Assembly: GCA_030145275.1 (NCBI GenBank)
Contig: JAQYVV010000005.1
Coordinates: forward strand, 1 to 64,000
From: Desulfurivibrionaceae bacterium
GTDB lineage: Bacteria > Desulfobacterota > Desulfobulbia > Desulfobulbales > VMSU01
Direction: 5' to 3'
DNA: 64,000 nt
In this document: positions 8,014-63,188 of the stretch, one piece after another
Position numbering within the stretch: the stretch's first letter is position 1
How the letters are laid out: each line of letters begins with the position of its first letter
Position numbers and translations under genes: made by a program
Notes under the pieces: generated by a model
Database searches by the model: none
What the model saw: the letters and a program-made list of their open reading frames with translations, nothing else
Told to the model about the DNA's origin: nothing

Positions 8014-8391
8014 TAAATATTCGGCAACACTCCATGACGGAGTCTACACTACGTTTCGCTTACCTGTGCCCGCCCAACGGAAGTGCCCTTGGGGTGCGAT
8101 CAGGCTGACTCACGTAGAACTACTACGCTTCGCCAACCTGATCGAACACATCTGAAGCGACGGAGTCTGCGCTTACCTGTCAAACATTTACATTTTGTTG
8201 GCTATAAAATGCACACCTACAAGTCCCCCTTCGAAGTCTCCTGCGTCGCTTATCTGCAAAGGGGGATTTAGGGGGATTTTTATTTGGCCATTGTCTCATG
8301 TCCGAAAGCCAAAGAGCGAGCTAGTCTCCAGTGAATTAAAGGTGCTTTTACTGCCTACTCTGATGCAGATGGAGTCATGCCGAATATTTAC
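8013..8391. repeat. Family A inverted-repeat element, copy A1
   Basis: It fills most of the gap between hydA and the minus-strand kinase gene. The termini are perfect 13-bp inverted repeats, GTAAATATTCGGC (8013-8025) and its complement (8379-8391). The first 179 bp are shared with A2, A3 and A4. Inside are a 27-bp module (8038-8064), the shared block CAACGGAAGTRCCCTTGGGG (8075-8094), a GATCAGG/CCTGATC hairpin, a 17-bp module (8161-8177), and a CCCCCTT/AAGGGGG hairpin whose loop holds a 23-bp module (8232-8254). No target duplication is visible. Short open frames here are repeated between copies and are not genes. Confidence 0.8.
8232..8254 (+). repeat. 23-bp form of the CGGAGTCT/CGCTTACC module
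   Basis: CGAAGTCT, 7-nt centre, CGCTTATC. It lies in the loop of a stem formed by CCCCCTT and AAGGGGG. Taking it out restores the simple palindromic hairpin CCCCCTTTGCAAAGGGGG. Confidence 0.7.
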
Positions 8392-8408
8392 AATCATTTT
8401 TTGACAGA

Positions 8409-9548
8409 TCAGGTGCTTACAGGCAGGCATATCTTAAAGGTTGCCCCTTGGCCGGCATTGTTTTTTAGGGACAGGACTCCGCCATAACGCTCTATTATCT
8501 GGCGGCTGATACTGAGACCTATGCCGGTGCCGGTGCCTGCTGGCTTGGTGGTGAAATATGACTCAAAAATAGCCTCTTCATCTTTGATGGGGATGCCACC
8601 CCCATTATCTTCAACCTCAATATATACCTTATCTCCATTTCTCTCAGAACGAACAGCAATGAATGGACTGATCTTATCTTTTTTACACCTTTCTTCCACG
8701 GCGTAACGCGCGTTGATGACAAGGTTGAGCAAAACCTGCTCAAATTCTGAAGCAGCAATGTCAACAAACGTATCATTGTGTATATCCTGCCGCAGTTCAA
8801 CTCCATGACTTTTCAACTGCACCTGGCAAAAAGACATGATGTTATGGATGGTATCAGCTATGTTTATTGTGCTTATTTTTTGCTGATGGCGGCCAATGCT
8901 TCTTATCTGGTCAATAATACTCGTGATTCTTTGCACATTATTTAAAACAGTATCGATTTCACCACTGACCTTCTCAAGGGTCAGGATCTTCTTTTTGTCG
9001 AACAATTTCCATGACTGCACTGTAAGGTTGATAACACTTAAGGGCTGGTTGATTTCATGGGCTATGCCCGTGGCCATTTCACCGAGTATGGCCAGACGAC
9101 CGATATGATTCATCATGTCCTTTCTTTGCTTGGCTTCTTGGGTGACTATTTTAGTGCGCAGTAATTTTTGCTTTTTCAGGGCCTTTTCTACTATAACATT
9201 GAGGTCTTCAGGTTGGGGAGGTTTGATTATATAACCAAAGACGCCTAAATCAAGGGTGGCAATGGTTGCCTTTACATCATCACTTCCGGTTAAAACAATG
9301 ACCAGCATATCTATTTCTTCCGGATACATGGCCTTGGCCTTGCGGATCAACTCAAAGCCGTCCATCTCAGGCATGGTAAGGTCCGTAATAAGAAGATCCA
9401 CAGGCCCTTTTTCAAGGATAGACCAGGCCTGTATACCGTTAGCTGCTTCAAGAATATCAAAATTATTTCCGTCCAGCATATTGCAATATAAGAATCTGCT
9501 GCTGGCGTCATCATCCACCAGTAATATAGATGCTTGGACATTATTCAT
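8409..9548 (-). CDS. Response regulator-histidine kinase hybrid
   Basis: 379 residues. Receiver domain with Asp56 in [13 protein letters not shown], then a HisKA domain with H164 in [13 protein letters not shown], and a HATPase domain with [14 protein letters not shown] and TGTGIGLS. No membrane segment. It is the last gene of a minus-strand set (receiver, CheA-like, this kinase), 15 bp after the CheA-like gene. Such soluble REC-HK proteins usually relay signals between phosphorelay partners; the likely partners are the two neighbours. It faces the hydrogenase operon tail to tail across element A1. Confidence 0.9.
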
Positions 9549-9563
9549 ATATTGTCTCCCGAA

Positions 9564-11657
9564 TCACAGATAATTATAAATATCACTGAAATTAAAGACC
9601 AGGATTGGCTTGCCGGTTCCAACTACAGCAGAGCCAGCAAACACCATATTGGCGGCAAGAAATTCTTGCTCAAATCTGGAGACGACAACCTTAACCTTGT
9701 ATTTCATACCATTTACACCGCAGGCCAGGCGACGTTGTTGTTCATCTTCAATAATTATTATGCGCTCTAATGGTTCTTTGCCTGTGTCATTGCCATATAA
9801 AAACTCCCCTAGATTGATAAAATGGAGCATGTCACCACGGTAGTCCATATATATTTCGTTCTTGAATGGCAACAAGGTTATGTTGTCCCCCCTTATAACT
9901 TCAACCAGGGAGCGATATTCGATACCATAGACGTCACCGCCAATTTTCACTAACTGTACATCCCTGGTTTTACTGCCCATATCCAGGGGCAGATAAAGAT
10001 CAATAGTTGTCCCTTCTCCATTCTTGGAAACAAGTTGCAGCCTGCCTCCTCTGGACTCAACAGCAGTGCGCACAACATCCATGCCTACGCCACGCCCGGA
10101 TACACTTGTGGCGACTTCATGGGTTGAAAAACCAGGCGCAAAAATCAATTTCTGCAGATCCTGATCACTGATCTCAGTTCCGGCCTCGATTAATCCTTTT
10201 TTTATCGCTTTAGCGCGTATCTGTTCAGGGTCTATCCCCTTACCGTCGTCTGAAATTGATATTTTTAATAAACCATCATCCCTGGTAGCAAAGATATCCA
10301 TTTTGCCCTGTGGATTTTTATTCACCTCCTTTCTTTGCTCGGGTGTTTCAACGCCGTGATCTACACTGTTACGGACAATATGCACCAGAGGGTCCTGCAA
10401 GGCTTTAACCAGACCGCGCGGGATTTCAATATCTTCACCTGACAGATTCAAGACTATATCTTTGCCAAGTTCGTCTGCTAAACGTGACACCTGGCCCGGC
10501 AGACGCTGAAATATATCACGTAATAACCTGTTGTTGAGGCTGGAGACCTTTGTCTCCAAATCATTTACGGTATTGTCAAGATCACTGTAACTATCTTTTA
10601 GGTGTTCACGATATTCTGATGGCAGCTTAGGGCCTATTTCCTGGACTAGATTTTCAAAGTTATTTCTATTGGCAACCAGTGAACCAACCTGCTGGGCAAC
10701 ATCTTGCAAAATCTTGCCGGAAATCCTGTAAAATTCTTCCTCTGCTGGTTTTTCATTCTCTGCCGGGGACGCAATACCGTCAGATGTGCCTTCATTAGAA
10801 GTTTTGGGACCTTTTTTCCAGATAATCTCAGCGCATTTTTGTAGCCCTTGCACCCAGAAACGATCAAATGCCTGCATAACAACCTCTGGCATGGTGTCGT
10901 ATACGTCGGTTATTACATCCCAGGCAAGAATTTCTTTCTTGTTTGGCAAAAATGAGCTTATTTCCTCAAAACCAGCGAAAATGTCTACAAGATCAAGTTT
11001 ATATAAAGATTCTTTGCCGCCCATGGCCATAGCTTCTAAGGCCTCAAGTTGACTACAGGCAATGGTGGTGAAATCTCTGCCATCTATGGATAATTTTTCT
11101 ATGGTTTTATAGTCAATAGGTATTACCGTTCTCTCTTGCTTTATTTTGATTTTCTCAAGAATTGCTTTTAAGGCATCAACAGCGGGAATAAGGGTGACAG
11201 GTTCAAGCTCAATGGATTTTTTGCTTACTTCACTACTTATTTGCTCGATTAATTTCTGCAAACTTGATAGTGAACTGTCTTTATAGCGGAGCTTATTAAG
11301 ACTGGTCAGCACCTCGTCAAAGGCAGGTTTTTCAAGAAATGCGGAATCCCTGGCATTTACAACAGCATCTCCCATAAGAGAAAGGGCTCCAAGCAGACAT
11401 TCTCCTTCTTCCGGTTCAAGTCCGCTTTTTACTTCCTGTTTGTCTCGAACAAAATCTTCTACCTTATGGATAAAGCTGGAAAGTGGCAGCAGATCTATAA
11501 AACCGCTGGTGCCTTTAAGAGTGTGCAGACATCTGAATATTAAATTCACCCCCTGGGCACTGCATTCTGCCATATTCAACGGTTCTTTGGCATCATCAAG
11601 CAAGGTCAGACTTTCCTGAATGAAATCTTCCAATAATCCTTTATCTGCAATACTCAT
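9564..11657 (-). CDS. CheA-type histidine kinase with Hpt, ATPase and CheW-like domains
   Basis: 697 residues. Hpt domain with H45 in CLHTLKGTSGF, a long middle region, a dimerisation/ATPase core (IVRNSVDHGVE, DDGKGI, GRGVGMDVV) and a C-terminal CheW-like domain. This is the order of chemotaxis-type kinases, but there is no adjacent receptor. It sits between a stand-alone receiver gene and a receiver-kinase gene, so it probably works in a dedicated phosphorelay rather than in flagellar taxis. The hydrogenase next door may be a target or signal source, but nothing in the sequence proves it. Confidence 0.9.
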   Translation of the reverse strand: MSIADKGLLEDFIQESLTLLDDAKEPLNMAECSAQGVNLIFRCLHTLKGTSGFIDLLPLSSFIHKVEDFVRDKQEVKSGLEPEEGECLLGALSLMGDAVVNARDSAFLEKPAFDEVLTSLNKLRYKDSSLSSLQKLIEQISSEVSKKSIELEPVTLIPAVDALKAILEKIKIKQERTVIPIDYKTIEKLSIDGRDFTTIACSQLEALEAMAMGGKESLYKLDLVDIFAGFEEISSFLPNKKEILAWDVITDVYDTMPEVVMQAFDRFWVQGLQKCAEIIWKKGPKTSNEGTSDGIASPAENEKPAEEEFYRISGKILQDVAQQVGSLVANRNNFENLVQEIGPKLPSEYREHLKDSYSDLDNTVNDLETKVSSLNNRLLRDIFQRLPGQVSRLADELGKDIVLNLSGEDIEIPRGLVKALQDPLVHIVRNSVDHGVETPEQRKEVNKNPQGKMDIFATRDDGLLKISISDDGKGIDPEQIRAKAIKKGLIEAGTEISDQDLQKLIFAPGFSTHEVATSVSGRGVGMDVVRTAVESRGGRLQLVSKNGEGTTIDLYLPLDMGSKTRDVQLVKIGGDVYGIEYRSLVEVIRGDNITLLPFKNEIYMDYRGDMLHFINLGEFLYGNDTGKEPLERIIIIEDEQQRRLACGVNGMKYKVKVVVSRFEQEFLAANMVFAGSAVVGTGKPILVFNFSDIYNYL

Positions 11658-11723
11658 TCTAATATCCCATTATGTTTAGCATGGTTTCTATGAACATTGT
11701 CAAAGGCGGTTGAGTCATAATTA

Positions 11724-12152
11724 TCAAAACTCAGCAAGGCGATTCTGCCAATACAGATGCCGTTTATACATGGTGCCCACCGCCTGCTCCAACTCCTCAA
11801 GATCTACCGGCTTGAAAAATATATATGAGGCGCCATAGCGTTGGGCCCGGACCACGTTTTCCAGATTTTTATGGCCGGTTACAACTATGACCTGGCAATT
11901 GGGTCTTTCCTGTCTTAGCTGTCGGATCAGGGCATAGCCATCAACAAAGGGCATGCATATATCGGTGATTAGTACATGGTAAGGATTTTTCAAAAACTCT
12001 TGCAGGCCTCTGACAGGGTCGGAAAATGAAGAAACGTTATGCCCGGTCAAGCCTTCAAGGCTATTGGCCATTGCTGTGGCTATTTCAACTTCATCATCGA
12101 CAACCATTATGTTGAATCCAGTATTTTTTTCTTTGCTCCTTTTTTTAGTCAT
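11724..12152 (-). CDS. Single-domain response regulator
   Basis: 142 residues, one receiver domain with VVDDE, phosphoacceptor Asp64 in LITDICMPFVDG and the conserved Lys in FFKPVDL. No DNA-binding domain. First gene of the minus-strand set; 66 bp separate it from the CheA-like gene. Likely partner of that kinase. Confidence 0.9.
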   Translation of the reverse strand: MTKKRSKEKNTGFNIMVVDDEVEIATAMANSLEGLTGHNVSSFSDPVRGLQEFLKNPYHVLITDICMPFVDGYALIRQLRQERPNCQVIVVTGHKNLENVVRAQRYGASYIFFKPVDLEELEQAVGTMYKRHLYWQNRLAEF

Positions 12153-12830
12153 TTTTACTCCTTGTCAAGCAACTGTGTGTTCTGAGGCCCTTATCAAGGG
12201 GCATAAATGTTTGAAAAAAGCAGTTCCGTTATAATGGAGAAGTCAGTGGGTAATTTGCAATGATTATTCCAATAATCATTTTCATCTTGAAAATAAGTAG
12301 GAGCAGAGCAGGGATTGGTTTTATCGGAGTAATTGTGCAAAACGTCCTGGCAAATAATTCATGATGACAATCCTTGCAATAAATGTTGCTGACGTATGAA
12401 GCAATATGCCCAAAATCAACGTAACTATCGGTTATCTACTGATATTCCCCCTCTTCTCCTCTTGCAACCCAAATACAATTTGTTGCAGGCTTTTCCTTTT
12501 TTGTATTTGATCTGCGGGGGAGATAACTCCGAGCCAGTGGAAATGGCTAGTTATTTGATTCCTCGCCGATCCGGCAGTACTGCTTATTTATGGGTTTAAC
12601 TTTTTGACAGAGTGATTTTACGGCAGCAAATTTAAGTCGAAAGACTGTGTGTAAGTTGGATATTACCCTCGCTGGCATAAAATTAGCATTCTCGCTGAAG
12701 TGAAGAAATAAGATTCAGTTAAATGCGGGCTGTAATTTTAGCATAAGGTGATCAAAGCCGTTAGCTGTTAGCCTGGAAGCTGATAGCACAATTTAACATA
12801 AAATATTAAATCAACAGGGAGTCTGACATT
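12153..12830. other. Divergent intergenic region between receiver gene and chemoreceptor
   Basis: 678 bp. It must hold the promoters of both flanking transcription units. A sigma-54-like site is listed separately. A short open frame (12396-12599) has no ribosome site, no recognisable motif and an unremarkable composition, so I do not call it. None of the A-G elements was seen here. Confidence 0.5.
12673..12688 (+). promoter_or_regulatory. Possible sigma-54 promoter for the chemosensory cluster
   Basis: TGGCATAAAATTAGCA matches the -24/-12 pattern TGGCAC-N5-TTGCA with the key GG and GC pairs at the right distance and two mismatches in the conserved boxes. It lies about 143 bp before the chemoreceptor start. 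Weak evidence by eye only. Confidence 0.28.
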
Positions 12831-15095: not shown

Positions 15096-15100
15096 TTTAG

Positions 15101-15154
15101 CTAACTATTCGGGCGCACCTTATCTCGGAGTCTAACGCACTCCTGAACAGTTAC
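15101..15154. repeat. Family B element, degenerate short copy B1
   Basis: CTAACTATTCGG at the left and CTGAACAGTTAC at the right match the family B termini. Between them is a degenerate module (15126-15143, CGGAGTCT then AACGCACTCC). It starts 6 bp after the chemoreceptor stop. No target duplication was found. Confidence 0.5.
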
Positions 15155-15197
15155 GCTTTGGAGTTAAGGGTAATTTAAAACTCCATCTGAAGATACG

Positions 15198-15385
15198 ATT
15201 TTAGTGCCTTATAACTGAAATCCTGTCACAAAAAACCAGATAAGCGAAGACTTCGGATAAGCGAAGACTTCGGATAAGCGAAGACTTCGGATAAGGAAGA
15301 CTTCGAGAATTCCCAAAAAAGAACAATGCTCCCAAGATGTTGCAGACAACTGTTAAGGCACTTATTTCCGGTTTATCCGGATTAG
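15198..15385. repeat. Family C element, copy C1, interrupted by a tandem module array
   Basis: The left end TTTAGTGCCTTATAAC and the right end GTTAAGGCACTTATTTCC...CCGGATTAG are inverted relative to each other. The reverse complement matches C2 (58627-58745) almost throughout, except that 67 bp of tandem modules (15239-15305) sit where C2 has none. The right end supplies the AGGAGA ribosome site of the CheW gene. Confidence 0.75.
15239..15305 (-). repeat. Tandem array of four 17-bp modules
   Basis: Units GATAAGCGAAGACTTCG at 15239-15255, 15256-15272 and 15273-15289, then a 16-bp unit at 15290-15305 lacking one base of the CGC step. Head to tail with no spacers. On the minus strand each reads CGAAGTCTTCGCTTATC, the same module found singly elsewhere in the window. 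Confidence 0.9.
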
Positions 15386-15396
15386 GAGATAATAAT

Positions 15397-18083: not shown

Positions 18084-18261
18084 GAGGCTGTCAGAGAATA
18101 GCTACCCCACTGCAGGTAAGCGCAGACATCGAAGCCGCAGAAATTGGCCCATTTTCCCGCTAATTTTCGTTCAATAGCGCTGCTATTCAGCGAAAATGAT
18201 CGAAAAACTGGTCTCAATTCTGCGACTTTTCGCTACGGCTTCTATTCTCGGACAGCCTCCT
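18082..18261. repeat. Family F inverted-repeat element
   Basis: 180 bp with 20-bp termini AGGAGGCTGTCAGAGAATAG (18082-18101) and, inverted, 18242-18261; 19 of 20 match. It holds a 17-bp module in reverse orientation (18115-18131) and an inner hairpin around ATAGCGCTGCTAT. It starts inside the cheB stop codon. No target duplication was seen. Confidence 0.75.
18115..18131 (-). repeat. 17-bp module in element F
   Basis: GGTAAGCGCAGACATCG; the minus strand reads CGATGTCTGCGCTTACC, followed by TG as in most other copies. Confidence 0.7.
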
Positions 18262-19400: not shown

Positions 19401-19509
19401 CTGCTCCAGAGGGAGGCGATCAGGCTGACCAGCTATACTCCCCTCCCCCCCCTTGTATGCTGGGCGGACTGATTACCTCCCTCTGGAGCGGACAGAATCT
19501 TCGCTTACC
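19401..19509. repeat. Family G hairpin with adjacent degenerate module
   Basis: CTGCTCCAGAGGGAGG (19401-19416) pairs with CCTCCCTCTGGAGCGG (19476-19491), 15 of 16 bases. The interior shares GCGATCAGGCTGAC with family A. A degenerate module, CAGAATCTTCGCTTACC (19493-19509), follows directly. It lies in the 200-bp gap before cheR. Confidence 0.65.
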
Positions 19510-20791: not shown

Positions 20792-20938
20792 CTATTCAGC
20801 TGCACCCCATCTGCGCGCGAACAGTCCTTCCAGTATACCGATGTATCGCTGAAAGGACTGTTCACACACACCTGGGGCACATCTAAACAGTTACATTCGG
20901 TGGTTATGCCCGTTTTTTGGCCCTACCTGAATAGTTAC
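20788..20938. mobile_element. Family B MITE, copy B2 (module-free)
   Basis: 151 bp with termini GTAACTATTCAG and CTGAATAGTTAC. It is flanked by a perfect 8-bp target duplication ATTGGCGA (20780-20787 and 20939-20946). It has no protein-coding capacity. It is the shortest full-length B copy and contains none of the 17/25-bp modules found in B3, B4 and B6, so it serves as the empty reference. Confidence 0.92.
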
Positions 20939-27822: not shown

Positions 27823-28122
27823 TCCGGATAAACCGGAAATAAGTGCCTTAACAGTAGAGTGTTACATTTTTATTTCAAAATACTTTGTAACTGTTCAGCT
27901 GCACCCCATCTGCGCGCGAACAGGACTTCCAGCATACCGATGTATCGAAGTCTCACTTTGTTCGCTTATCTGCTGAAAGGCCTGTTTACACACACCTGGG
28001 GCACATCTAAACAGTTACAACTAGGTGGTTATGCCCCGCTTTTGGGCCCTACCTGAATAGTTAAAATACTTTTTAGTATTTGGTGTTTTTTTATGACAGG
28101 AATTCAACGTTAAGGCACTAAA
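27819..28122. repeat. Family C element, copy C3, with a family B element nested inside
   Basis: Left end CTAATCCGGATAAACCGG...AAGTGCCTTAAC; right end GTTAAGGCACTAAA, which abuts the ATG of the helicase gene. Element B3 (27887-28064) has inserted in the middle. The whole space between two genes is therefore repeat DNA. Confidence 0.75.
27887..28064. mobile_element. Family B MITE, copy B3
   Basis: 178 bp, from GTAACTGTTCAG to CTGAATAGTTAA (last base changed). It is flanked by an 8-bp duplication AATACTTT (27879-27886 and 28065-28072). Compared with B2 it has one extra 25-bp module (27946-27970) in GATGTATC/GCTGAAAGG. Inserted into family C element C3. Confidence 0.9.
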
Positions 28123-30091: not shown

Positions 30092-30271
30092 GTAAATATT
30101 CGGCAACACTCCATGACGGAGTCTACACTACGTTTCGCTTACCTGCGCCCGCCCAACGGAAGTGCTCTTGGGGGGCGATCAGGTTGACTCACGTAGAACT
30201 ACTACGCTTCCGCCAACCTGATCGAACACATCTGAAGCGACGGAGTCTTCGCTTACCTGTCAAACATTTAT
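30092..30271. repeat. Family A element, copy A2
   Basis: Begins GTAAATATTCGGC two bases after the helicase stop and shares the 180-bp A core, including the 27-bp module (30117-30143), the block near 30154-30173 and a 17-bp module (30241-30257). A clear right terminal repeat was not found; the shared sequence may extend to about 30307. Confidence 0.75.
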
Positions 30272-30845: not shown

Positions 30846-31065
30846 GTAACTGTTCAGCTGCACCCCATCCGGAGTCTACGCTTACCTGCGCGCGCCCAAC
30901 GGAAGTACCCTTGGGGTGCGAACAGGCCTTCCAGCATACCGATGTATCGAAGTCTCACTTTGTTCGCTTATCTGCTGAAAGTCCTGTTCACACACACCTG
31001 GGGCACATCTAAAAAGTTACAATCCGGTGGTTATGCCCGTCTTGGGGGCCTACCTGAATAGTTAC
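30846..31065. mobile_element. Family B MITE, copy B4
   Basis: 220 bp, GTAACTGTTCAG to CTGAATAGTTAC, with a perfect 8-bp duplication TAGCAATC (30838-30845 and 31066-31073). Compared with B2 it has a 17-bp module (30870-30886) after CCCCATC, the 20-bp block shared with family A (30897-30916) and a 25-bp module (30948-30972). It lies 37 bp upstream of the flavodoxin-like gene start. Confidence 0.93.
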
Positions 31066-42472: not shown

Positions 42473-42524
42473 GTAACTATTCAGCTGCACCTCATCCGGA
42501 GTCTGCGCTTACCTGAACAGTTAC
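42473..42524. mobile_element. Family B, minimal 52-bp copy B5
   Basis: GTAACTATTCAG to CTGAACAGTTAC enclosing only 10 bp plus one 17-bp module (42497-42513). Flanks TATTTATT (42465-42472) and CATTTATT (42525-42532) match at 7 of 8, fitting an aged target duplication. It lies just upstream of selD. Confidence 0.75.
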
Positions 42525-44960: not shown

Positions 44961-45137
44961 GTAAATATTCGGCAACACTCCAGCTGCGCCCGCCCAACGG
45001 AAGTGCCCTTGGGGTGCGATCAGGCTGACTCACGTAGGACTACTACGCTTCGCCAGCCTGATCGAACACATCTGAAGCGACGGAGTCTTCGCTTACCTGT
45101 CAAACATTTACATTATATTGGTTATTGTTGTATTTAC
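44961..45137. mobile_element. Family A element, copy A3
   Basis: From GTAAATATTCGGC to TATTTAC, 177 bp. Flanks TTTTTGGG (44953-44960) and CTTTTGGG (45138-45145) match at 7 of 8, suggesting an 8-bp target duplication. It lacks the 27-bp module found in A1 and A2 at the same place and carries one 17-bp module (45081-45097). A further GTAAATATTCGGC end begins at 45145, so it appears to have inserted next to another A end. Confidence 0.75.
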
Positions 45138-45866: not shown

Positions 45867-46026
45867 TAATTAGGATAAACCGGAAATAAGTACCTTAACA
45901 GTAGATGCAACACCTTTAAATGAATATACCTTTTTCATTTCTTGCCACTCAGTTCAGTACCCCCCTGTGGGGTGTAAAAAACACGAGATAAGCGCAGACT
46001 TCGAAATGATTTATAAGGTACTAAAC
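45867..46026. repeat. Family C element, copy C4
   Basis: Left end TAGGATAAACCGGAAATAAG and TACCTTAACAGT; right end TTATAAGGTACTAAA. A 17-bp module in reverse orientation lies at 45987-46003 (GATAAGCGCAGACTTCG). It fills the divergent gap before the DUF4912 gene. Confidence 0.65.
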
Positions 46027-49096: not shown

Positions 49097-49278
49097 ATGT
49101 TCGGCAACACTCCAGCTGTGCCCGCCCAACGGAAGTGCCCTTGGGGTGCGATCAGGCTGACTCACGTAGAACTACTACGCTTCGCCAACCTGATCGAACA
49201 CATCTGAAGCGACGGAGTCTTCGCTTACCTGTCAAACATTTACATATTGTTGTTTTTCAGTGTTAGTCGAATATTTAC
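49093..49278. repeat. Family A element, copy A4
   Basis: GTAAATGTTCGGC (49093-49105) to GTCGAATATTTAC (49266-49278), 186 bp, with the block CAACGGAAGTRCCCTTGGGG (49127-49146) and a 17-bp module (49213-49229). Flanks GACAAGATTC and GAAATAATTC match at only 7 of 10. Confidence 0.75.
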
Positions 49279-49361
49279 GAAATAATTCAAACAAATTTAT
49301 TAATTTTAACGTAACTTCTCCAAAAGTGGTGAAAAAACTCCTGGATCCCCGATAACGACAT

Positions 49362-49378
49362 CGGAGTCTGCGCTTACC
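49362..49378 (+). repeat. 17-bp module in D1, filled site
   Basis: CGGAGTCTGCGCTTACC between GACAT and TCGGGG. The corresponding sequence in D2 (63236-63262, minus strand) reads GACAT directly followed by TCGGGG, so the module is an exact 17-bp insertion. Confidence 0.88.
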
Positions 49379-49437
49379 TCGGGGATGACGATCGTAACTA
49401 CTCGTAAGTCCGTCATTCCGTCATGTTGTTAGCCGGA

Positions 49438-49454
49438 GGTAAGCGTAGACTCCG
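49438..49454 (-). repeat. 17-bp module in D1, reverse
   Basis: GGTAAGCGTAGACTCCG after GCCGGA. D2 has a module at the matching place. Confidence 0.85.
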
Positions 49455-49519
49455 ATCCAGAAAGTCAAAAACAACTATTTACCACCACTTTTGGAGAAGT
49501 TACATTTTTAACATGTTAC

Positions 49520-49570: not shown

Positions 49571-50191
49571 ATGAAAAAGATTGAAAGAGCATTAATTAGT
49601 TTAACGGACAAGTCTGGTATTGAAACATTCGCCAAGCAGTTGAGCGATTTGGGTATTGAAATTCTCTCCACAGGAGGGACTGCAAAAAAAATGAGGGATA
49701 ACGGCATAGATGTTATCGGTGTCTCCGATTATACAGGGTTTCCTGAAATGCTTGATGGCCGGGTTAAAACTCTTCACCCTAAAATCCACGGAGGGATCCT
49801 AGCTCAGCGTGAAAATGCAGATCATCAAGCTCAGATGAAAGAGCATGACCTGTCCTACATAGACCTGATAGCCGTTAATCTGTATGCCTTTGATAAGGCA
49901 ACATCTGACCCAAGTTGTACTCTGGCCAATGCCATAGAAAATATTGACATTGGCGGCCCCACCATGCTTAGGGCTGCGGCAAAAAATTTCCAGGACGTCA
50001 CGGTCATTGTGGATCCGGATGACTACCCTCAAGTTATTAAAGAGATTAAAGAGACGGGGAATACAACCCTTGAAACCCGATTCAGATTGATGGTCAAAGT
50101 CTTTGATTTAACCAGCAGATACGATACCGCGATTACGGCCTGGTTGAAAAAAGTTAACGTTGAAACCAATTCCCATTTCAAGGGAGATTAA
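49571..50191 (+). CDS. purH: Stand-alone IMP cyclohydrolase (PurH N-terminal domain)
   Basis: 206 residues that cover only the IMPCHase domain of Pur[68 protein letters not shown]. The AICAR transformylase domain is missing, so another gene must perform that step, as is known for several anaerobes. Reaction: FAICAR to IMP. AGGAGA precedes the ATG. Next gene purN starts 4 bp after the stop. Confidence 0.92.
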
Positions 50192-55024: not shown

Positions 55025-55259
55025 GTAACTCTTCAGCTGCACCCCATCCGGAGTCTTCGCTACCTGCGCGCGCCCAACGGAAGTACCCTTGGGGTGCGAA
55101 CAGGCCTTTCAGCATACCGATGTATCGAAGTCTCACTTGGTTCGCTTATCTGCTGAGAGGTCTGTTCACACACACCCGGAGTCTGCGCTTACCTGGGGCA
55201 CATCTGAAGAGTTACAGTCTGGAGTTAAGGGTAATTTCCAGCCTATGCTGAATAATTAC
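55025..55259. mobile_element. Family B MITE, copy B6 (three modules)
   Basis: GTAACTCTTCAG to CTGAATAATTAC, 235 bp. Flanks carry the 9-bp repeat GAAGTTTTT (55016-55024 and 55260-55268). Relative to B2 it holds a 16-bp module (55049-55064), the A/B shared block (55075-55094), a 25-bp module (55126-55150) and a 17-bp module (55177-55193, inserted in CACACC/TGGGGC). Confidence 0.9.
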
Positions 55260-55300
55260 GAAGTTTTTTGCCAGCCGCACGGGCTGGAATTTGATTAGGC

Positions 55301-55516: not shown

Positions 55517-55623
55517 GATACAAACTCCATGTATGTGTTAAGTGATACAATATTTATGAAAAGTAATGCCTGTGAGATTATGTGTCAACTCACACCCTTA
55601 TCGAAAATTGTTAGGAAGCTGGT

Positions 55624-56235: not shown

Positions 56236-56568
56236 TCCACCAAATCCATCAGCAATAATATCTGCTCCACTGGGAAATCTCATGGGAGTAAAAGACTGAT
56301 GCCACTCATCAGATATTCCATAGGTTAGGCACATGAGAATGATAATTGTATCAAAGAACCGTTTTGATACCTGTTTTTGCAAGTCACCAAGAGCATATAT
56401 ATAAGAAAAGCCCAGAATGGCGTATGTAAGAGCATGCAGAACTTTGTCAATATGCAGGCCAAACGGTATTCTGATCGTATCACCGGGCTGATGAGAAAGA
56501 AAAAAGATTAGCCCCATGATGAACATGGCAGGAACAAGACGCATAGTTTTTTGAGCAAGTGTTGTCAT
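56200..56568 (-). CDS. VanZ-like family membrane protein
   Basis: 122 residues, about four membrane segments, with DKVLHALTYAILGFSYIYAL and SDEWHQSFTPMRFPSGADIIADGFGG, the conserved D-K-xxH and DExHQ...R...SxxDxxAN core of VanZ-like proteins. The family includes teicoplanin-resistance VanZ, but most members have no known role. Overlaps the neighbour tail to tail by 36 bp. Confidence 0.88.
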   Translation of the reverse strand: MTTLAQKTMRLVPAMFIMGLIFFLSHQPGDTIRIPFGLHIDKVLHALTYAILGFSYIYALGDLQKQVSKRFFDTIIILMCLTYGISDEWHQSFTPMRFPSGADIIADGFGGLVAVFFWRKWG

Positions 56569-56605
56569 AACGCTACAGGAAAAATTTTTCCTGAAAAAGA
56601 GTGGG

Positions 56606-56644
56606 CATAAAAAAAGCAGGCCTGTTAGTTGAACAGACCTGCTT
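56606..56644 (-). terminator. Rho-independent terminator of the SEC-C gene
   Basis: AAGCAGG-C-CTGTT and AACAG-A-CCTGCTT pair in a hairpin; on the minus strand it runs into seven T. It lies 23 bp after the stop of the SEC-C gene. Confidence 0.9.
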
Positions 56645-56666
56645 GAGATTATGAGAACGGTCCGTC

Positions 56667-57152
56667 TCAGTCTACATGGATACTTTCCAGAAGTTGGCTG
56701 GAGAAACTCCGGTTTACTCTTTGGATTGCTGAATGAACCGCCGAATGTGGGAAGTTTTGATGTACCTCTGTGGTGTCGTCAGCATACGCGGTAGTTGTAA
56801 ATTTTTTATCTTTGATCTCAAAACGGTGAGACCAGTTGACCTCAATTGTCTCCTGTTTTTCAGTAATGTCGACATCTATTTTTTCTCCGCCTTTAGCTAC
56901 TTGAAGCGCATCTTTGTCAGACAACTCCAGAAGCCATCCATCCCCTTCTGCCGTGGTAATGAAAATGAAGACGCCAATATTTTTTATGGACTCTTTTTTG
57001 GCTATTGCTGTCTCCTGTAATTTTTCAACTTCCTGGCTTACCGAAATTTGAGTGGGAGTAGTTGCCTCGGTAATATTTTGTCCAATACAACATTTCTTGT
57101 ATTTCTTGCCGCTGCCGCATGGGCATGGTTCATTCCTGCCGATTTTTGTCAT
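56667..57152 (-). CDS. SEC-C-motif protein
   Basis: 161 residues. The N-terminal zinc-binding SEC-C motif [16 protein letters not shown] is perfect. It is followed by an unrecognised domain ([22 protein letters not shown]) without known function. The motif alone suggests metal binding and contact with protein or nucleic acid. Single gene with its own terminator. Confidence 0.88.
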
Positions 57153-57178
57153 ATATTTTCTCGTTAATTAAGGGTTAG

Positions 57179-57226
57179 CTGTTGCATCTACTGTTAAGGT
57201 ACTTATTTCCGGTTTAACCGGATTAG
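57179..57226. repeat. Partial family C element, copy C5
   Basis: Right half only: TACTGTTAAGGTACTTATTT then CCGGTTTAACCGGATTAG. It ends 5 bp before the stop of the HD-GYP gene. Confidence 0.6.
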
Positions 57227-57230
57227 ATAT

Positions 57231-58547
57231 TTACAGAATTTCTTCTCCATGAAGTTCCTTTCTAATTCTTTTGAATGTCTCTTCGTGGACGAGAAATGCC
57301 TCAACAATATCGGGGGCAAATGATACTTCTTTTTCTTCTAAGATAATACTTTTTGCTTTTTCGTGACTGAAGGCATCTTTATAGCATCTTTTTGAGGTAA
57401 GGGCATCGTAGACATCGGCAAGGGAAACTATTCGAGCTGAAAGAGGTATTTCCTCCCCCTTTAATTGGCTTGGATATCCTTTTCCATTCCATTTTTCGTG
57501 GTGGTAATAGGCTATTTCCTTGCCTATGGTCAGGAATGACTGATTTCTAAACTGTTTATCAATGGCCGACAAGGTTTGACCGCCAAGGACGGAGTGAGTC
57601 TTGATTTGTTCAAATTCCTCTGCGGTGAGTTTTCCTTCTTTTAATAAGATATGGTCCGGAACCCCGACTTTACCAATGTCGTGGAGAATAGAAGACTGGT
57701 ATATGTCATCAATATAGGATTCGGTAATATAATCTTGATATTGTGGCTGTTGGGACAATTCCTCGGCCAATACCTTGCTGAATTCACGAATTCTCTCAAG
57801 GTGGCTGCCGGTGTCGTTGTCTCTGTATTCTGCTAATTTTGCCAATCCTAAAATAACACCGGTTTTTGCTTCTTTAACATTTTCAAGAGATTCAAGAAGG
57901 CTTTTTTCAAGCATTCTTTTCTCTGTAATATCTCTGGCTATACCTCTAATTCCTACGGACCTTGAGGACGAATCTGTTATTAGTGAGGCAGATAGATCGA
58001 TGATCTTTTTCCCTCCTCCCTTTATAAGAAATTCACACTCAAGAGGGGTTGTCAGCATTTTGTTGGTGGTGATGCCCTGGAAGGTTTCAGAAAAAATCTG
58101 TTTATATTGTTTATCTACATAAGCCAACATATTGGTGTTAAGGATCTTGTCTTTTTTGCGTGCCAAAATTGCGCACATGGAGTTATTGAGAAAGGTGAAA
58201 TTTCCCTGTAGATCGACTTCGTAATAACCCTCTTCTATGCTTTCAAGAATTGACCGGTATTTTTCTTCGCTTTCACTTAGGTTCTCCTCGGCCTTTCTGC
58301 GTTTTTTAATATTGCTTTGTACATGGGAGCCAAAAAGAATAAATAACACACTCACAGCCATCTTCTCGTAAAGCTGGAATTCTGACCCAATAACAATGAG
58401 TTGCCAGTTGGTGCTGGGTGAATCCATAAAGCGCAGCAGAGAGGAAAAAAACCAATAAAACAGAGTAATGCCAAGGCCAAAACCGAGCATGGCATTAGCG
58501 AGACGATCGTTTATTGAATTTTGTTTGTTTGGTTTGCTTGGTTTCAT
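57231..58547 (-). CDS. Membrane PAS-HD-GYP cyclic-di-GMP phosphodiesterase
   Basis: 438 residues. Two N-terminal membrane segments (about 18-36 and 55-75), a PAS domain (about 90-205) and a HD-GYP domain: NDTGSHLERI, SILHDIGKVGVPD, HSVLGGQTL, HHEKWNGKGYP and ADVYDALTSKR with all metal-binding His/Asp. It should hydrolyse c-di-GMP in response to a signal sensed by PAS. A PilZ protein (48329) is a possible reader in the same region. Confidence 0.93.
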   Translation of the reverse strand: MKPSKPNKQNSINDRLANAMLGFGLGITLFYWFFSSLLRFMDSPSTNWQLIVIGSEFQLYEKMAVSVLFILFGSHVQSNIKKRRKAEENLSESEEKYRSILESIEEGYYEVDLQGNFTFLNNSMCAILARKKDKILNTNMLAYVDKQYKQIFSETFQGITTNKMLTTPLECEFLIKGGGKKIIDLSASLITDSSSRSVGIRGIARDITEKRMLEKSLLESLENVKEAKTGVILGLAKLAEYRDNDTGSHLERIREFSKVLAEELSQQPQYQDYITESYIDDIYQSSILHDIGKVGVPDHILLKEGKLTAEEFEQIKTHSVLGGQTLSAIDKQFRNQSFLTIGKEIAYYHHEKWNGKGYPSQLKGEEIPLSARIVSLADVYDALTSKRCYKDAFSHEKAKSIILEEKEVSFAPDIVEAFLVHEETFKRIRKELHGEEIL

Positions 58548-58626
58548 AATACCCGTGGAAGTTTGCCTAAAACCTTTTTGGAATGATCGAAAAATTTCAA
58601 CTTTCAGGCAATTATATCCATAGATT

Positions 58627-58745
58627 CTAATCCGGATAAAGCGGAAATAAGTGCCTTAACAGTGGTCTGCAACATATTGGGAACATTGTTCTTTTTTGGA
58701 ATTCTTGTTTTTTGTGACAGGATTTCAGTTATAAGGCACTAAATC
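58627..58745. repeat. Family C element, copy C2 (module-free reference)
   Basis: CTAATCCGGATAAAGCGG to TTATAAGGCACTAAATC, 119 bp. Matches the complement of C1 except for the four-module insertion in C1, which falls after GAATTC and before TGTTTTTTG-type sequence. Confidence 0.8.
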
Positions 58746-58830
58746 TTGCGATTAAGGCATATTCGTTGATTGCGGGAATAAAATCGACTACTTTGAAGGC
58801 GGTCAATTATCATTCAAATCACATAAAAAG

Positions 58831-58880
58831 GTAACTTTTCAGGTAGGGCTTGAAATGACCCTAAACGTTATAATAGTTAC
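58831..58880. repeat. Short family B-like copy
   Basis: GTAACTTTTCAGGTAGGGC matches the B right end reversed; the other end is ATAGTTAC. 50 bp, no module. Confidence 0.5.
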
Positions 58881-58921
58881 TGAATATTAAACATTATTGT
58901 CCAGGAAGATGCAACAATTCA

Positions 58922-61900
58922 ATGACACAGCTAAATGACTATCAATACCCCGACAACCTCCCTATTGTAGCCCATCGCGAGCAGATTATTGAGGCAATTC
59001 AAGAAAACCAGGTTGTTATTGTCGCAGGTGAAACTGGTTCAGGTAAAACGACCCAACTCCCGAAAATGTGCCTGGAAGCTGGTAGAGGCGCCAAAAAGGT
59101 AATTTGCTGTACGCAACCTCGCAGGATAGCCGCTTTTTCCGTTGCTGCCAGGGTGTCAGAAGAGTTGGCTCTCTGTGGCGAAAATATTGTTGGTTACAAA
59201 ATAAGGTTCAAGGATAGAACCTCTTCCAGTACCAAAATAAAATTTGTCACAGATGGCATGCTTTTGGCGGAAACACAAAGGGACCAGAAGCTCAAGGCCT
59301 ATGACACTATTATCATCGATGAAGCCCATGAAAGAAGTCTAAATATTGATTTTATTTTAGGAATCCTGACCACGCTTCGAGAAAAAAGAAGTAATCTTAA
59401 AATTATTATATCTTCCGCAACCCTTGATGTGGATAAGTTCTCAGGCCATTTTAAAGGGGCGCCAATTATCAAGGTCTCGGGGCGTTCCTATCCGATTCAA
59501 ACCCAATATATAGAAAAAGAGGCAGAGGAAAAAGATGATTTCAGCCATATAGAGCATGCCGTCCAAAAAGTATTGGAGATTGCCGACTCTCGCGAGCCTG
59601 GAGATGTTCTTGTCTTTATGCCGACAGAGAGGGATATCTTGGAGGTATCTGAAGGCCTTTCGGGGCAGGAGAATATTACTGTGCTGCCGCTTTTTGGCCG
59701 CATGGCCGGTAAGGAGCAGAGCCGTATTTTTTCTAAAGCCAACCGACGCAAAATTGTCGTTGCCACAAATGTAGCTGAAACATCGATTACCGTTCCTGGG
59801 ATTCGTTTCGTTATCGATTCTGGTTTGGCACGGATATCAGGCTATAACGCTCGAGCTCGAACCACGAAGCTTCCTGTGCTGAAAATTTCAAAAGCAAGTG
59901 CTGATCAGCGTCAAGGCAGGTGCGGCAGGATTGGCCCAGGCATCTGCTATCGTCTCTATAGTGAGGAAAATTATAACAACAGAGCAGAATTTACAACGCC
60001 TGAAATTGTTCGCTCAAATCTTGCTGAAGTTATTTTAAGGATGATGAACCTCAGGCTTGGCCATCCTGCCAAATTCCCGTTTATAGATAAGCCCTTGCCG
60101 CGATCTATTGCCGATGGCTTTAAACTCTTAGAAGAACTTGGCGCCGTTTCAGAAATTGCCAGAACCAAAATGTCATCCCATGGCCTGACCAAGAGAGGCA
60201 GGTTTATGGCCCAACTCCCACTTGACCCAAGAATTTCCAGAATGATCATTGAATCAAAGCAGCGCAATTGCTTAAGGGAAATTCTGGTAATTTCATCGGC
60301 ACTTTCGGTGATGGACCCACGGATTAGGCCATTGGATAAACAAAAGGCCGCCGATGAAGCCCATGCAAAGTTCATAGAACCAGGTTCCGATTTCTTTTCC
60401 TATCTGAAAATTTGGGAACTATATCATCACACCTCGAAAAAGGTCGCTAGCAGGTCAAAACTACGTGCTTTTTGTAAAAACAATTTTCTCGGTTATCAGC
60501 GGATGCGGGAATGGTGTGATATATACGAGCAGTTGTGCCGTGTAGTCAGGCAAGAAAAAGGATTTGGCCTCAATTCAATTCCTGCTTCAAGCGATGCTGT
60601 GCATCAGGCAATTTTGAGTGGTTCGTTGAGAAATATTGCCGTTAAAAAAATAAAAAAAATCTTTACTGGAGCCCAAGGTAAGGAGCTTATGATTTTTCCG
60701 GGTTCTGCCCTGTTTGAAAAACCAGGGCAATGGATCATGGCAGGAGAAATTGTCGAAACATCCAGGTTGTATGCCAAAACTGTAGCCAGTATAGATCCGG
60801 CCTGGATTCAGCCATTAGCGGCAAAACTATGCAGATACACCTATTCAGCCCCCCATTGGGAAAAAAAACGTGGAATTGTGGCGGCTTCTGAGAAGGTTTC
60901 TCTTTTTGGTTTGATCATTTCAGCCAACAAAAAAGTCAATTATGGCCCAATTGATAAAAAAGAGGCCAGAGATATTTTCATACAAGCGGCCCTGGTGGAG
61001 GGACAATGTCTTAAAAAATATTCATTTCTCCAACAGAATAAGGAACTGATTAAAAAATTTCTGGAGATAGAAGAGAGGCTCAGGAAAAAAAGAGTTATTG
61101 ATGATTATGCCCTGTTTCATTTTTATGATCAGCGTCTGCCAGAAAATGTTTTTGACCTGCGCAGTCTCGATCAAGTCCTGCGCCAGCTTGAAGAAAAGCT
61201 GGTATTAAAAGAAGAGGATGTCCTACAGGAAGATGGGGGACAATTCCAGGCCGATCAGTTTCCTGAAAATATAAGGGTAGGGCGCCACACCTTCCAGCTT
61301 TCCTATCGCTTCGCCCCTGGAACCATTGAAGATGGGGTGACCTTGATCGTACCGATTGATATTGTTCCTCACCTGAATCCCGGCGATTTTGACTGGCTCG
61401 TTCCAGGTTTGATTGATGAAAAAATAGCCTGGCTTTTAAAGGGCCTGCCTAAAAAAATCCGCAAAAAACTTATACCAATTACGGCAACATCTGAAGCCAT
61501 TTGTCAAATTATACAATTTGGCCAGGGTTCTCTCTTTAAAGCGTTGGAAGATGGGATCTGGAAAAAATATCAGGTACGAATTGTACGTGCGGACTGGCAG
61601 CTTGAAAATATTCCTGAACATCTTAAAATGCGATTTTGTGTGAAGCAAAAAGAAAAAGTCCTTTGTGCCAGCAGGAAGTATTCTGAACTTCTAGGGCAGA
61701 AAGAGAGCAGTGGTATTGAAAATCTTATCCTTAAAATGCAGGTGAATTACGAACGTGAAAATATAACTGATATTGATTTTCCCGCACTTCCTGAACGTCT
61801 TCCTGTTTATGATAAAAACAAGGACCTTGCCGGCTTTGCTTTTCCAGGACTAAAAAAAGAGAAAGATGGCTCAATTTCATTAAAACTTTTCCTTGCTGAT

Positions 61901-62680
61901 GAGCCAAGGTGTCAGAAAACAAGGCTGGCGCTTCTGGATCTTTATAAGTTGCAGGTTGGCCGACAGGCAAGGGAATTGTCAAAAAGCCTTATGCTAAAGC
62001 AGTCCGAATGGCCACTTTTTGAGGGGCTTGGAACCTTTAAAGAGATAAACGAGCTCATTTTGACTTTTATTGAACGGCAGCTTTTTAAAGTTAATGATGG
62101 TCTTATTCCATCAAAAGAAGAATTTCAGCAAAGGTTGTCGAGCTTAAGCAAAGGTGAACTTCTCTTGAAAGGCCAGGAACTCTTTGCCGCAATAAAAACT
62201 GTTCTTAGTGAGCGCCGTATAACAATTGACCATATCTATGAATTTGAAAAAAAGGCCAAAAACTCAAATATTCATCTGCAAAATGTGCTCAAAAACGCAA
62301 CAGAGCAGGTGCAAGAAATTTTTTCCGAAGCCTCTTTTTATGAAAATAGGGCAGATAGACTGAAATTACTGCCTCGTTATTACAAGGCAATCCGAATCAG
62401 ATTAGAGAGGGCCTTTATCAATCTTGAGCAAGACAAGAAAAAATTACAACAACTTGCTCCCTTTATAGAATATGTCAGGCAATGCAGCAAAATATTAACC
62501 AAGACAAGACTGCCTAAACAACAGGCTGAATTGCAGAAATTGGTACAGGAATATTGGATAATGGTGCAAGAGTATAAGGTTTCACTTTTTGCCCAGGAGC
62601 TTAAGACCTCGCTCCCCGTTTCGCCAAAAAGACTAGAAAAGAAATGGAAGGAAATTGGTGAGGTGTGTGCAGAAGGGTGA
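58922..62680 (+). CDS. hrpA: HrpA-type ATP-dependent RNA helicase
   Basis: 1252 residues. DEAH-box helicase core: Walker A GETGSGKTTQLPK (about 35-47), IIDEAHERS (about 129-137), SATLD, VATNVAETSITVPGIRFVID and QRQGRCGR; then ratchet, OB and the long DUF3418 C-terminal region typical of full-length HrpA (about 1300). In E. coli HrpA resolves stalled or collided ribosomes. An AGGAAG lies rather far (about 13 nt) from the ATG. Confidence 0.93.
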   Translation: MTQLNDYQYPDNLPIVAHREQIIEAIQENQVVIVAGETGSGKTTQLPKMCLEAGRGAKKVICCTQPRRIAAFSVAARVSEELALCGENIVGYKIRFKDRTSSSTKIKFVTDGMLLAETQRDQKLKAYDTIIIDEAHERSLNIDFILGILTTLREKRSNLKIIISSATLDVDKFSGHFKGAPIIKVSGRSYPIQTQYIEKEAEEKDDFSHIEHAVQKVLEIADSREPGDVLVFMPTERDILEVSEGLSGQENITVLPLFGRMAGKEQSRIFSKANRRKIVVATNVAETSITVPGIRFVIDSGLARISGYNARARTTKLPVLKISKASADQRQGRCGRIGPGICYRLYSEENYNNRAEFTTPEIVRSNLAEVILRMMNLRLGHPAKFPFIDKPLPRSIADGFKLLEELGAVSEIARTKMSSHGLTKRGRFMAQLPLDPRISRMIIESKQRNCLREILVISSALSVMDPRIRPLDKQKAADEAHAKFIEPGSDFFSYLKIWELYHHTSKKVASRSKLRAFCKNNFLGYQRMREWCDIYEQLCRVVRQEKGFGLNSIPASSDAVHQAILSGSLRNIAVKKIKKIFTGAQGKELMIFPGSALFEKPGQWIMAGEIVETSRLYAKTVASIDPAWIQPLAAKLCRYTYSAPHWEKKRGIVAASEKVSLFGLIISANKKVNYGPIDKKEARDIFIQAALVEGQCLKKYSFLQQNKELIKKFLEIEERLRKKRVIDDYALFHFYDQRLPENVFDLRSLDQVLRQLEEKLVLKEEDVLQEDGGQFQADQFPENIRVGRHTFQLSYRFAPGTIEDGVTLIVPIDIVPHLNPGDFDWLVPGLIDEKIAWLLKGLPKKIRKKLIPITATSEAICQIIQFGQGSLFKALEDGIWKKYQVRIVRADWQLENIPEHLKMRFCVKQKEKVLCASRKYSELLGQKESSGIENLILKMQVNYERENITDIDFPALPERLPVYDKNKDLAGFAFPGLKKEKDGSISLKLFLADEPRCQKTRLALLDLYKLQVGRQARELSKSLMLKQSEWPLFEGLGTFKEINELILTFIERQLFKVNDGLIPSKEEFQQRLSSLSKGELLLKGQELFAAIKTVLSERRITIDHIYEFEKKAKNSNIHLQNVLKNATEQVQEIFSEASFYENRADRLKLLPRYYKAIRIRLERAFINLEQDKKKLQQLAPFIEYVRQCSKILTKTRLPKQQAELQKLVQEYWIMVQEYKVSLFAQELKTSLPVSPKRLEKKWKEIGEVCAEG

Positions 62681-62865
62681 CACTTTATATCAAAGTGGGT
62701 ATCCAGTTAGCTCAACTTGATTCAAAATTCTTAACAAATGGTGGTTATACCTCCTGGATTCCCGTTAAAAGCGTACGGGAATGACGACATAAAGGAGTTT
62801 TTCACATCTAGCACCGTCATCGGAGTCTGCGCTTATCTCCCGCATGTAGTTAGCGGGAATTATGG
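62681..62865. repeat. Family D left part with module, before the GIY-YIG gene
   Basis: From about 62727: GGATTCCCGTT...ACGGGAATGACG hairpin, GGAGTTTTTCAC, then a 17-bp module (62821-62837) directly 5' of a TCCCGC...GCGGGA hairpin. It is related to D1 in order but diverged. Confidence 0.6.
62821..62837 (+). repeat. 17-bp module 5' of a hairpin
   Basis: CGGAGTCTGCGCTTATC between GTCAT and TCCCGC; removal gives the common ATTCCCGC hairpin border. Confidence 0.8.
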
Positions 62866-63165
62866 GTGATAGGAATTAATAAGCAGCCCTCAGTATACAT
62901 ACTCGCAAGCAAAAGAAATGGTACCCTTTACGTGGGCGTTACTTCTAATCTCGTCAAAAGGATATGGGAACATAAAAACAATTTGGTAGAAGGATTCACC
63001 AAACGCTATGGAGTTCATCAACTGGTTTGGTATGAAATGCACGAGACCATGGAATCTGCAATTCAGCGGGAGAATAGATTGAAAGGGTGGACGCGAGCAT
63101 GGAAATTAAAATTGATTGAAAGCAGCAATCCTGATTGGCATGATTGGTACCTAACGATTGTCTGA
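62866..63165 (+). CDS. GIY-YIG endonuclease nested in a D-type repeat
   Basis: 99 residues, GTG start; no ribosome site is obvious, so the real start may be a few codons later. Motifs: VYILASKRNGTLYVGVT (GIY-YIG), LVKRIWEHKNN, GVHQLVWYE, the catalytic Glu region AIQRENRLKGW and KLKLIESSNPDW. It belongs to the short bacterial GIY-YIG family often annotated as uncharacterised. The gene sits between a D left part (62727-62865) and D2 with modules on both sides (62821, 63172). It may be an active nuclease coupled to the repeat, or a passenger. Confidence 0.85.
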   Translation: MIGINKQPSVYILASKRNGTLYVGVTSNLVKRIWEHKNNLVEGFTKRYGVHQLVWYEMHETMESAIQRENRLKGWTRAWKLKLIESSNPDWHDWYLTIV

Positions 63166-63171
63166 CTGGAT

Positions 63172-63188
63172 CGGAGTCTGTGCTTACC
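63172..63188 (+). repeat. 17-bp module after the GIY-YIG gene
   Basis: CGGAGTCTGTGCTTACC between GGAT and TCCGGC. D1 carries a module (49438) at the matching place. It starts 7 bp after the nuclease stop. Confidence 0.85.

Follow-up and report, generated by a model that had tools for sequence, protein, structure and literature searches.

A 17–27 bp hairpin-like module in intergenic repeats of Desulfobulbales, a candidate micro-element akin to the small dispersed repeats of Nostoc

Introduction

The closest described counterparts of the element analysed here, a 17 bp module scattered over a 64,000-nucleotide stretch of a Desulfurivibrionaceae bacterium (assembly GCA_030145275.1, contig JAQYVV010000005.1, positions 1 to 64,000; hereafter the window), are the small dispersed repeats (SDRs) of Nostoc. 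Reportedly described by Elhai et al. in Genome Res. in 2008, SDRs are said to be 21–27 nt long and dispersed, to lie in minitransposons and tandem repeats and to be nested in themselves; a secondary structure that they have in common reportedly shows compensatory changes in some families, and no enzyme is known for them. To our knowledge, the movement of DNA pieces of about 20 nt has been an open question since they were described. Among larger elements, miniature inverted-repeat transposable elements (MITEs) are short, non-autonomous mobile DNAs that carry terminal inverted repeats and duplicate their target, while in integron attC sites and other single-strand hairpin recombination sites the bottom strand folds and leaves conserved bases unpaired. 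Repetitive extragenic palindromes (REPs) and REPINs, associated with RAYT transposases, are described in excerpts of PMC3116915 and PMC3733652 as short, intergenic and palindromic sequences with many copies and mutual insertion, for which a single-strand hairpin has been considered; excerpts of PMC2884548 and PMC3116915 mention the SDRs of Nostoc and its relatives.

We regard the module as a new and smaller family of the SDR kind, in a different phylum (order Desulfobulbales). It is 17–27 bp long with many dispersed copies, although its commonest form is shorter than the range reported for SDRs. Its sites occur in precise empty and filled versions (20 of 47 sequence contexts by a strict rule, and eight of ten in G033, a genome of another family), it lies inside other repeats and inside itself, and compensatory changes point to a structure, though not at the pair 4/13; at the pair 5/12, nine of 19 kept sequences are paired. 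It differs from SDRs, which are compared here by their reported description and not by sequence, in a shortest form of 17 bp, in several length classes built on one core, in tips that resemble stable DNA mini-hairpins and in a T before and after. The Nostoc SDRs (reportedly 21–27 nt) are of the same kind, so that the view of the initial annotation, in which size and behaviour set the module apart from every described element known, is not supported.

With REP and REPIN sequences the module shares its shortness, intergenic position, hairpin, copy number and insertion into itself, but it has no GTAG- or CGTC-tagged palindrome of 20–40 bp, and Y1 transposase genes are neither near it nor in step with it. 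Like MITEs it is short DNA of a non-autonomous type, and MITE-like repeats host many modules, yet it is shorter, its inverted ends are imperfect and there is no target duplication. A folded strand with unpaired conserved bases recalls attC sites, which are much longer and come with a cassette that is missing here. Five 17-mers of the module were not found in the literature searched, nor was the element found among the papers listed for repeats of Desulfobulbaceae and Desulfobulbales.

Copy number and distribution

The genome that contains the window is a 3.09 Mb draft, 84% complete. We searched it for the module consensus CGRAGTCT-N-CGCTTAYC, with the reversed pattern as a control. The exact 17 bp module occurs 226 times (128 forward and 98 reverse) against none for the control. 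With a gap of 2–32 between the half-sites a further search gave 144 matches, again against none, a number that includes adjacent or tandem module pairs read as one. A closer study covered 808,682 bp of this genome, the window included. Here 191 copies were found at up to two mismatches, of which 141 are exact, 33 have one mismatch and 17 have two. Because all 22 matches of the reversed control in the same sequence have two mismatches, the two-mismatch copies are partly due to chance and were dropped from later counts. The centre between the conserved ends is 1 nt long in 132 of the 191 copies and 2 nt in 20; longer centres have 9 nt (ten copies), 8 nt (eight), 7 nt (seven) or 11 nt (seven), and seven copies have other lengths. 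As first noted for the window, the length classes share their ends and differ in the variable centre, both within this genome and across the order.

Within the window, the pattern CGRAGTCTNCGCTTAYC at up to three mismatches gives 19 matches, compared with a mean of 0.70 in 100 shuffled sequences (largest 3). Together with a 16 bp unit at 15290 and six long forms this agrees with the initial estimate of about 25 copies. One of the matches, at 49717 with three mismatches, is probably a chance occurrence.

The 17 bp form is present in 32 of 58 genomes, the genome of the window among them. Across the order, forms with centres of 6–13 nt turned up in 120 of 193 genomes, with at least two copies in 92 and at least ten in 56, and the richest genomes hold 259, 226, 221 and 204 copies. 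In 28 of the 120 genomes there is a single long-form match, which may be chance, the control range being 0–2 per genome. The distribution is uneven even within one family (f11), in which two genera (g45 and g46) have none in every genome drawn and two others (g53 and g59) have dozens. Among named stretches, 80 of the 111 listed, 52 bear Desulfobulbales names, 22 broader or neighbouring names (including Deltaproteobacteria, Desulfobacterales and Desulfobacteraceae) and six other names. Desulfogranum and Desulfocapsaceae were checked as members of Desulfobulbales, while the other names counted under this order are those that we take to belong there. One of the six stretches with other names (L079) carries a second, long-form copy and may come from a misnamed relative. 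The single matches under other names (Planctomycetota, Bacteroidales, Paenibacillus, Pseudomonadota and Nitrospirae) are possibly chance, as simple arithmetic gives an expectation of about 480 exact matches for 257 Gb. Matches in cultured hosts include Desulfogranum marinum and Desulfobulbus rhabdoformis. The module reaches well outside any single repeat family or genome.

Empty and filled sites

The 132 non-tandem copies with at most one mismatch in the 808,682 bp were sorted by their flanks into 47 contexts. An empty site was accepted under a strict rule that allows at most three differences over 28 flanking bases, with one base between the flanks and no module sequence adjoining. Such a site exists for 20 of the 47 contexts, in 14 of them with at most one difference. 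A looser rule, which admits weak matches and sites beside other modules, raises the number to 31. The coexistence of empty and filled sites described earlier is seen both across the 808,682 bp and in the window, where the module at 49362..49378 (+ strand) has an empty counterpart at 63233..63261 (− strand) with both 14-base flanks identical. The 47 flank contexts likewise bear out the earlier view that the hosts are unrelated repeat families rather than a single one.

Individual contexts are informative. In context 2, 16 strict empty copies are found together with nine filled ones, the centre of which is A, G, CGCATACT or a truncated form. For one MITE-like family we found 28 places, dropped four that are not this repeat and used the remaining 24 copies. 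These show five insertion positions spread over both arms and filled in many combinations, with three different centres at one and the same position. On a tree of this family the fewest changes required are eight for nine filled copies, ten for ten and seven for seven. The tree is weakly resolved, with good support for only one of 21 inner branches, and the count is blind to gain versus loss. Tandem arrays mix units of the GG..CC and GA..TC types, and a module inside a module is seen as well, for which partial duplication is an alternative. One MITE-like copy (L206:9271) has, near its module, an extra 27-nt piece TGCCGCGAAGCAAATGCCCTTGGGGTG that is possibly another small insertion.

The same behaviour is seen in G033, where 392,500 bp contain 41 copies, 39 of them non-tandem and falling into ten contexts. 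Eight of these have a strict empty site, one of the eight (context 6) being an odd tandem case. The module is also mainly intergenic: two of 174 copies lie within open reading frames (ORFs) of at least 120 amino acids, which cover 81% of the sequence, and both belong to repeats as judged by their flanks.

Target site

Taking one copy per context, a T precedes the module in 41 of 47 contexts and follows it in 46 of 47, the next base then being G (26) or C (11). No target duplication is seen at the empty sites. Where the listed filled copies of contexts 2, 3, 13 and 35 have this T, 32 of the 33 strict empty copies carry A, C or G. The inserted unit is therefore likely to be the module plus a T that replaces one base of the target, with insertion into rare T variants of the target as the alternative. 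Context 7 shows a three-base change beside the module, and contexts 5 and 16 also have further changed bases. The initial annotation held that removal of the module restores the empty sequence. It does not always do so exactly, as the base change in contexts 2, 3, 13 and 35 and the three-base change in context 7 show; a possible replacement of one target base was overlooked.

With the flanks joined, 22 of the 47 contexts place the insertion site inside the loop of a predicted hairpin, compared with 25% of 611 nearby control positions. The binomial p value is 0.001, the control positions not being independent of each other.

Hairpin structure of the module

Covariation indicates that the module is a hairpin in which the two arms pair with each other, a feature that had gone unnoticed in the initial annotation. 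Read in this way, the core stays the same and the length classes differ in the tip that it carries. The pair 3/16 (positions of the 17 bp form) is strongly supported. Among 174 copies it is G–C in 104 and A–T in 65, against three G–T and two A–C. A search of the 58 genomes for other types gave 71 matches, of which 67 are C–G (most of them in a single genome, G002), one is T–A and three are C–A.

The pair 7/11, which is well supported, was proposed first and then searched for as copies changed at both positions. This gave 189 matches, 104 of them in G033, while the reversed pattern gave about 95 (summed from the table), so that the evidence lies in which letters occur. Among the matches listed, 68 distinct sequences were typed, and the 41 in which 3/16 pairs and the centre has an accepted length were kept. 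Of these listed sequences 27 are of the Watson–Crick type (p = 2e-5 against one third), namely 21 T–A from 18 genomes, five G–C and one A–T. When only listed sequences with a centre known from unchanged modules are taken, 12 of 15 pair (seven T–A, four G–C and one A–T; p = 3e-4 against one third), and among those listed with centres of 1–2 nt seven of nine do so, all seven T–A. The pair 2/17 is weakly supported.

The long centres form a second small stem of their own, as the same kind of comparison shows. We scanned all pairs of positions in the distinct centres among the sequences listed, assuming no structure beforehand. In the 9-nt centres the best two of all pairs are 2/8 (44 of 50, z = 8.2) and 3/7 (42 of 50, z = 6.3), and in the 11-nt centres the best are 3/9 (26 of 29) and 4/8 (25 of 29). 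For the 8-nt centres 2/7 ranks best (24 of 33) and 3/6 third (23 of 33; 16 of 21 in an earlier, smaller set). Position 2 pairs with position 6 in seven of seven 7-nt centres in an earlier count on fewer sequences.

The tip is best viewed on the complementary strand. A 1-nt centre there gives C-G-N-A-G and a 2-nt centre C-G-NN-A-G; centres of greater length mostly give C-G-A-stem-G-A-G. The conserved T and C that border the centre are read on this strand as G and A, which face each other and, we infer, resemble a sheared pair. Within the long centres a TNC loop, GNA on the other strand, is found in 22 of 50 centres of 9 nt and in 23 of 29 of 11 nt, compared with a random expectation of one in 16. 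Pairing across a 2-nt loop is easier in DNA than in RNA, and the 8-nt centres pair across two bases, although theirs is the weakest of the centre signals. According to excerpts of PMC4686876, GNA and GNNA loops closed by at least two G–C pairs form exceptionally stable, nuclease-resistant DNA mini-hairpins. The match of many module tips to these loops hints at single-stranded DNA as the mobile form, without proving it.

Proposed mechanism and alternative explanations

Taken together, we think it probable that the module represents a mobile micro-element of the SDR kind, non-coding and hairpin-shaped, that is handled as a single-stranded DNA hairpin. In sequence it has a conserved core of two arms of 8 nt, with a tip between them that varies in length, and it is found inserted in many unrelated intergenic repeats, several of them built like MITEs, which are small transposon derivatives; in the window's genome it nearly always lies between T and T. 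The strand handled would be GNTAAGCG-tip-AGACTNCG, on which the invariant G and A beside the tip would form a sheared G–A pair and so give the GNA and GNNA loops of stable mini-hairpins. This hairpin would be joined into a T-flanked site, either by an enzyme encoded elsewhere or by host repair at single-stranded or hairpin-loop DNA, sometimes with one target base replaced by the T that follows the module. Filled copies would then have been multiplied by amplification of the host repeats.

More tentatively, and with the odds rather against it in this full form, the 17–27 nt DNA hairpin could be the whole mobile unit: single-stranded, made nuclease-resistant by its sheared G–A tip, joined into T-flanked single-stranded sites with replacement of one base by an enzyme or repair pathway that is new to mobile elements, acquiring new tips of different length on a fixed core and spread through much of the order. 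If it is indeed mobile, the module would be among the smallest mobile DNA elements known. It would also provide a second SDR-like system, from another phylum, with a structure backed by covariation and with several tip classes. The question is now testable, because copy numbers range from zero to more than 200 within one order and cultured hosts have matches. When intergenic repeats are aligned, micro-insertions of this size can be mistaken for ordinary indels.

A number of observations weigh against a mobile DNA hairpin. For 27 of the 47 contexts the stretches examined contain no empty site under the strict rule, and copy numbers overstate the number of events, as many copies were passed on together with the repeat around them. 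Nor does the T rule hold throughout: T nearly always follows in the window's own genome, as the initial annotation had it, but in G033 only 31 of 41 copies are followed by T and ten by G. Outside G033 the count of double changes at 7/11 is at the control level and is uninformative. T–A, moreover, can be reached by two common transitions, so that the G–C forms weigh more, and all 20 G033 sequences listed for this pair are G–C and were probably inherited with one repeat. At 2/17, A–T occurs in G108 (four sequences) and G124 (one), and the other matches are at the control level. At 5/12, nine of 19 kept sequences are paired, eight of them A–T, in a set of 25 chosen by eye from 94. The pair 4/13 has no support and gives fewer matches than its control. 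Energy models applied to single modules give no fold clearly better than shuffled sequences on either strand, and at best weak folds with pairs other than those proposed; this is not decisive because the models are believed to lack terms for these loops. GNA-type loops and most of the pairs would also fit RNA. Finally, no moving enzyme emerged from the searches of Y1, RVT_1 and multi-copy genes; integrases, other HUH families and IS110 were not searched for.

Two alternatives concern the mover. A REP-like sequence could be moved by a Y1 transposase (RAYT or IS200/IS605 type) that recognizes single-stranded hairpins. This would agree with a single-strand hairpin with an imperfect stem, with the intergenic location and with the absence of target duplication, and 52 of the 58 genomes have a Y1 match. 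We nevertheless judge it unlikely. The genome of the window, whose typed module total tops the 58, has no Y1 match (in a draft 84% complete); Y1 numbers do not follow module numbers (rho = 0.16, p = 0.22); one of 30 Y1 loci (91,826 bp, the best-scoring only) has a module-like sequence; and the core CGNAGTCT..CGCTTANC is not a GTAG- or CGTC-tagged palindrome. Movement by an RNA copy and reverse transcription, which was reportedly suggested for the cyanobacterial SDRs, has about the same small chance of being right. Compensatory structure changes are also expected of RNA, and the window's genome has two RVT_1 matches. However, RVT_1 is absent from seven of 18 genomes with at least 20 modules, several of which are incomplete, its numbers are uncorrelated with those of the module (rho = −0.007), and 8-nt centres pairing across a 2-nt loop suit DNA better than RNA. 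A gene family that follows the module, which the initial annotation proposed to look for, was thus not found among these two. A search for multi-copy genes beside modules, over 680 ORFs of at least 80 amino acids in the 808,682 bp and at 60% identity, yielded four two-copy families and none larger, and the family search gave no identity for the four. These negatives are weakened by the missing parts of draft genomes.

Explanations without movement are less probable still. The module might be an old part of the repeats that has been lost by precise deletion, or it might merely be shuffled between repeat copies by recombination. Most copies do lie in repeats that may recombine, the change count on the tree would read the same for gain and loss, and 27 contexts are without a strict empty site. 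Set against this are the 47 contexts, the several positions within one repeat, the varied centres at a single position, the mixed tandem arrays and the nesting, and a precise loss without flanking duplications would need to recur. Ancestral loss, one of the outcomes considered in the initial annotation, is thereby made unlikely. The least probable of the explanations considered is a selected protein- or RNA-binding site in palindromic repeats that is not mobile. High conservation (141 of 191 copies exact) and the structural constraint would fit a bound hairpin, but many copies of the same repeats lack the module, its distribution among genomes of the order is patchy, and it occurs nested and in tandem arrays. 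A shortened transposon that has lost its middle was also considered and rejected: half-sites outside modules number 32 and 39 in the 808,682 bp, against about 49 each expected by chance at equal base frequencies. An Rfam scan of the window returned nothing at the gathering score.

Copies in the window

The 17 bp modules on the + strand of the window lie at 8161..8177, 30241..30257, 30870..30886, 45081..45097, 49213..49229 and 55177..55193, in addition to the copy at 49362 given above. Another, at 42497..42513 (+), is flanked by the ends GTAACTATTCAG and TGAACAGTTAC, and that at 62821..62837 (+) is of a mixed type with G at position 3 and T at position 16. On the − strand, 45987..46003 is of the GA..TC type, and 49438..49454 lies in the opposite arm of the palindromic repeat that also carries the 49362 copy. 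A tandem array at 15239..15305 (−) comprises three full 17 bp units and one unit of 16 bp. One mismatch is found in the copies at 18115..18131 (−; A4 to T) and 63172..63188 (+). The copy at 55049..55064 (+) has lost one T and is 16 bp long, and that at 19493..19509 (+) is degenerate and doubtful, with two mismatches and C as the next base.

Of the longer forms, all on the + strand, the 27 bp copies at 8038..8064 and 30117..30143 have the centre ACACTACGTTT, and the 23 bp copy at 8232..8254 has the centre CCTGCGT and is bordered on either side by the arms CCCCTT and AAGGGG. The 25 bp copies contain CACTTTGTT (27946..27970 and 30948..30972) or CACTTGGTT (55126..55150). An empty counterpart of the three 25 bp sites is present at 20833..20861 (+). 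Counterparts of the two 27 bp sites that are free of the module lie at 44972..44999 and 49104..49131 (both +), with three flanking bases different. MITE-like palindromic repeats with the ends GTAACTTCTCCAAAAGTGG, at 49300–49510 and 63140–63305, carry modules.

Related observations

Two contigs of the IMG/VR viral collection, 3300029216_000023 and 3300033153_011881 (L162, L167, L174 and L176), carry several modules each. For one viral-contig locus no empty allele was found, six of six matches keeping the 17-base spacing. Some of the viral-contig modules sit within short repeated words such as ATTCGTTATTCG; Nostoc SDRs are likewise said to occur within heptamer repeats. A two-mismatch match with a 10-nt centre at L193:9808 lies in the apparent anticodon and variable arm of a tRNA-Ser gene and is probably due to chance.

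A second, unrelated piece of 26 bp, CCCAACGGAAGTRCCCTTGGGGTGCG (CCCAACGG...GGTGCG), has exact empty counterparts within the GTAAATGTTCGG family of repeats and is found in two further repeat contexts in the window's genome. The 808,682 bp contain 15 copies, six of which lie in the window at 8075, 30154, 30897, 44995, 49127 and 55075 and nine elsewhere in stretches of the same genome; the other loci examined have one weak match. Given its precise presence and absence, this genome may therefore harbour more than one family of micro-insertions. In the 808,682 bp, the words that recur most often between varied flanks include heptamer tandem repeats of GTTGAAA (word GTTGAAAGTTGAAA).

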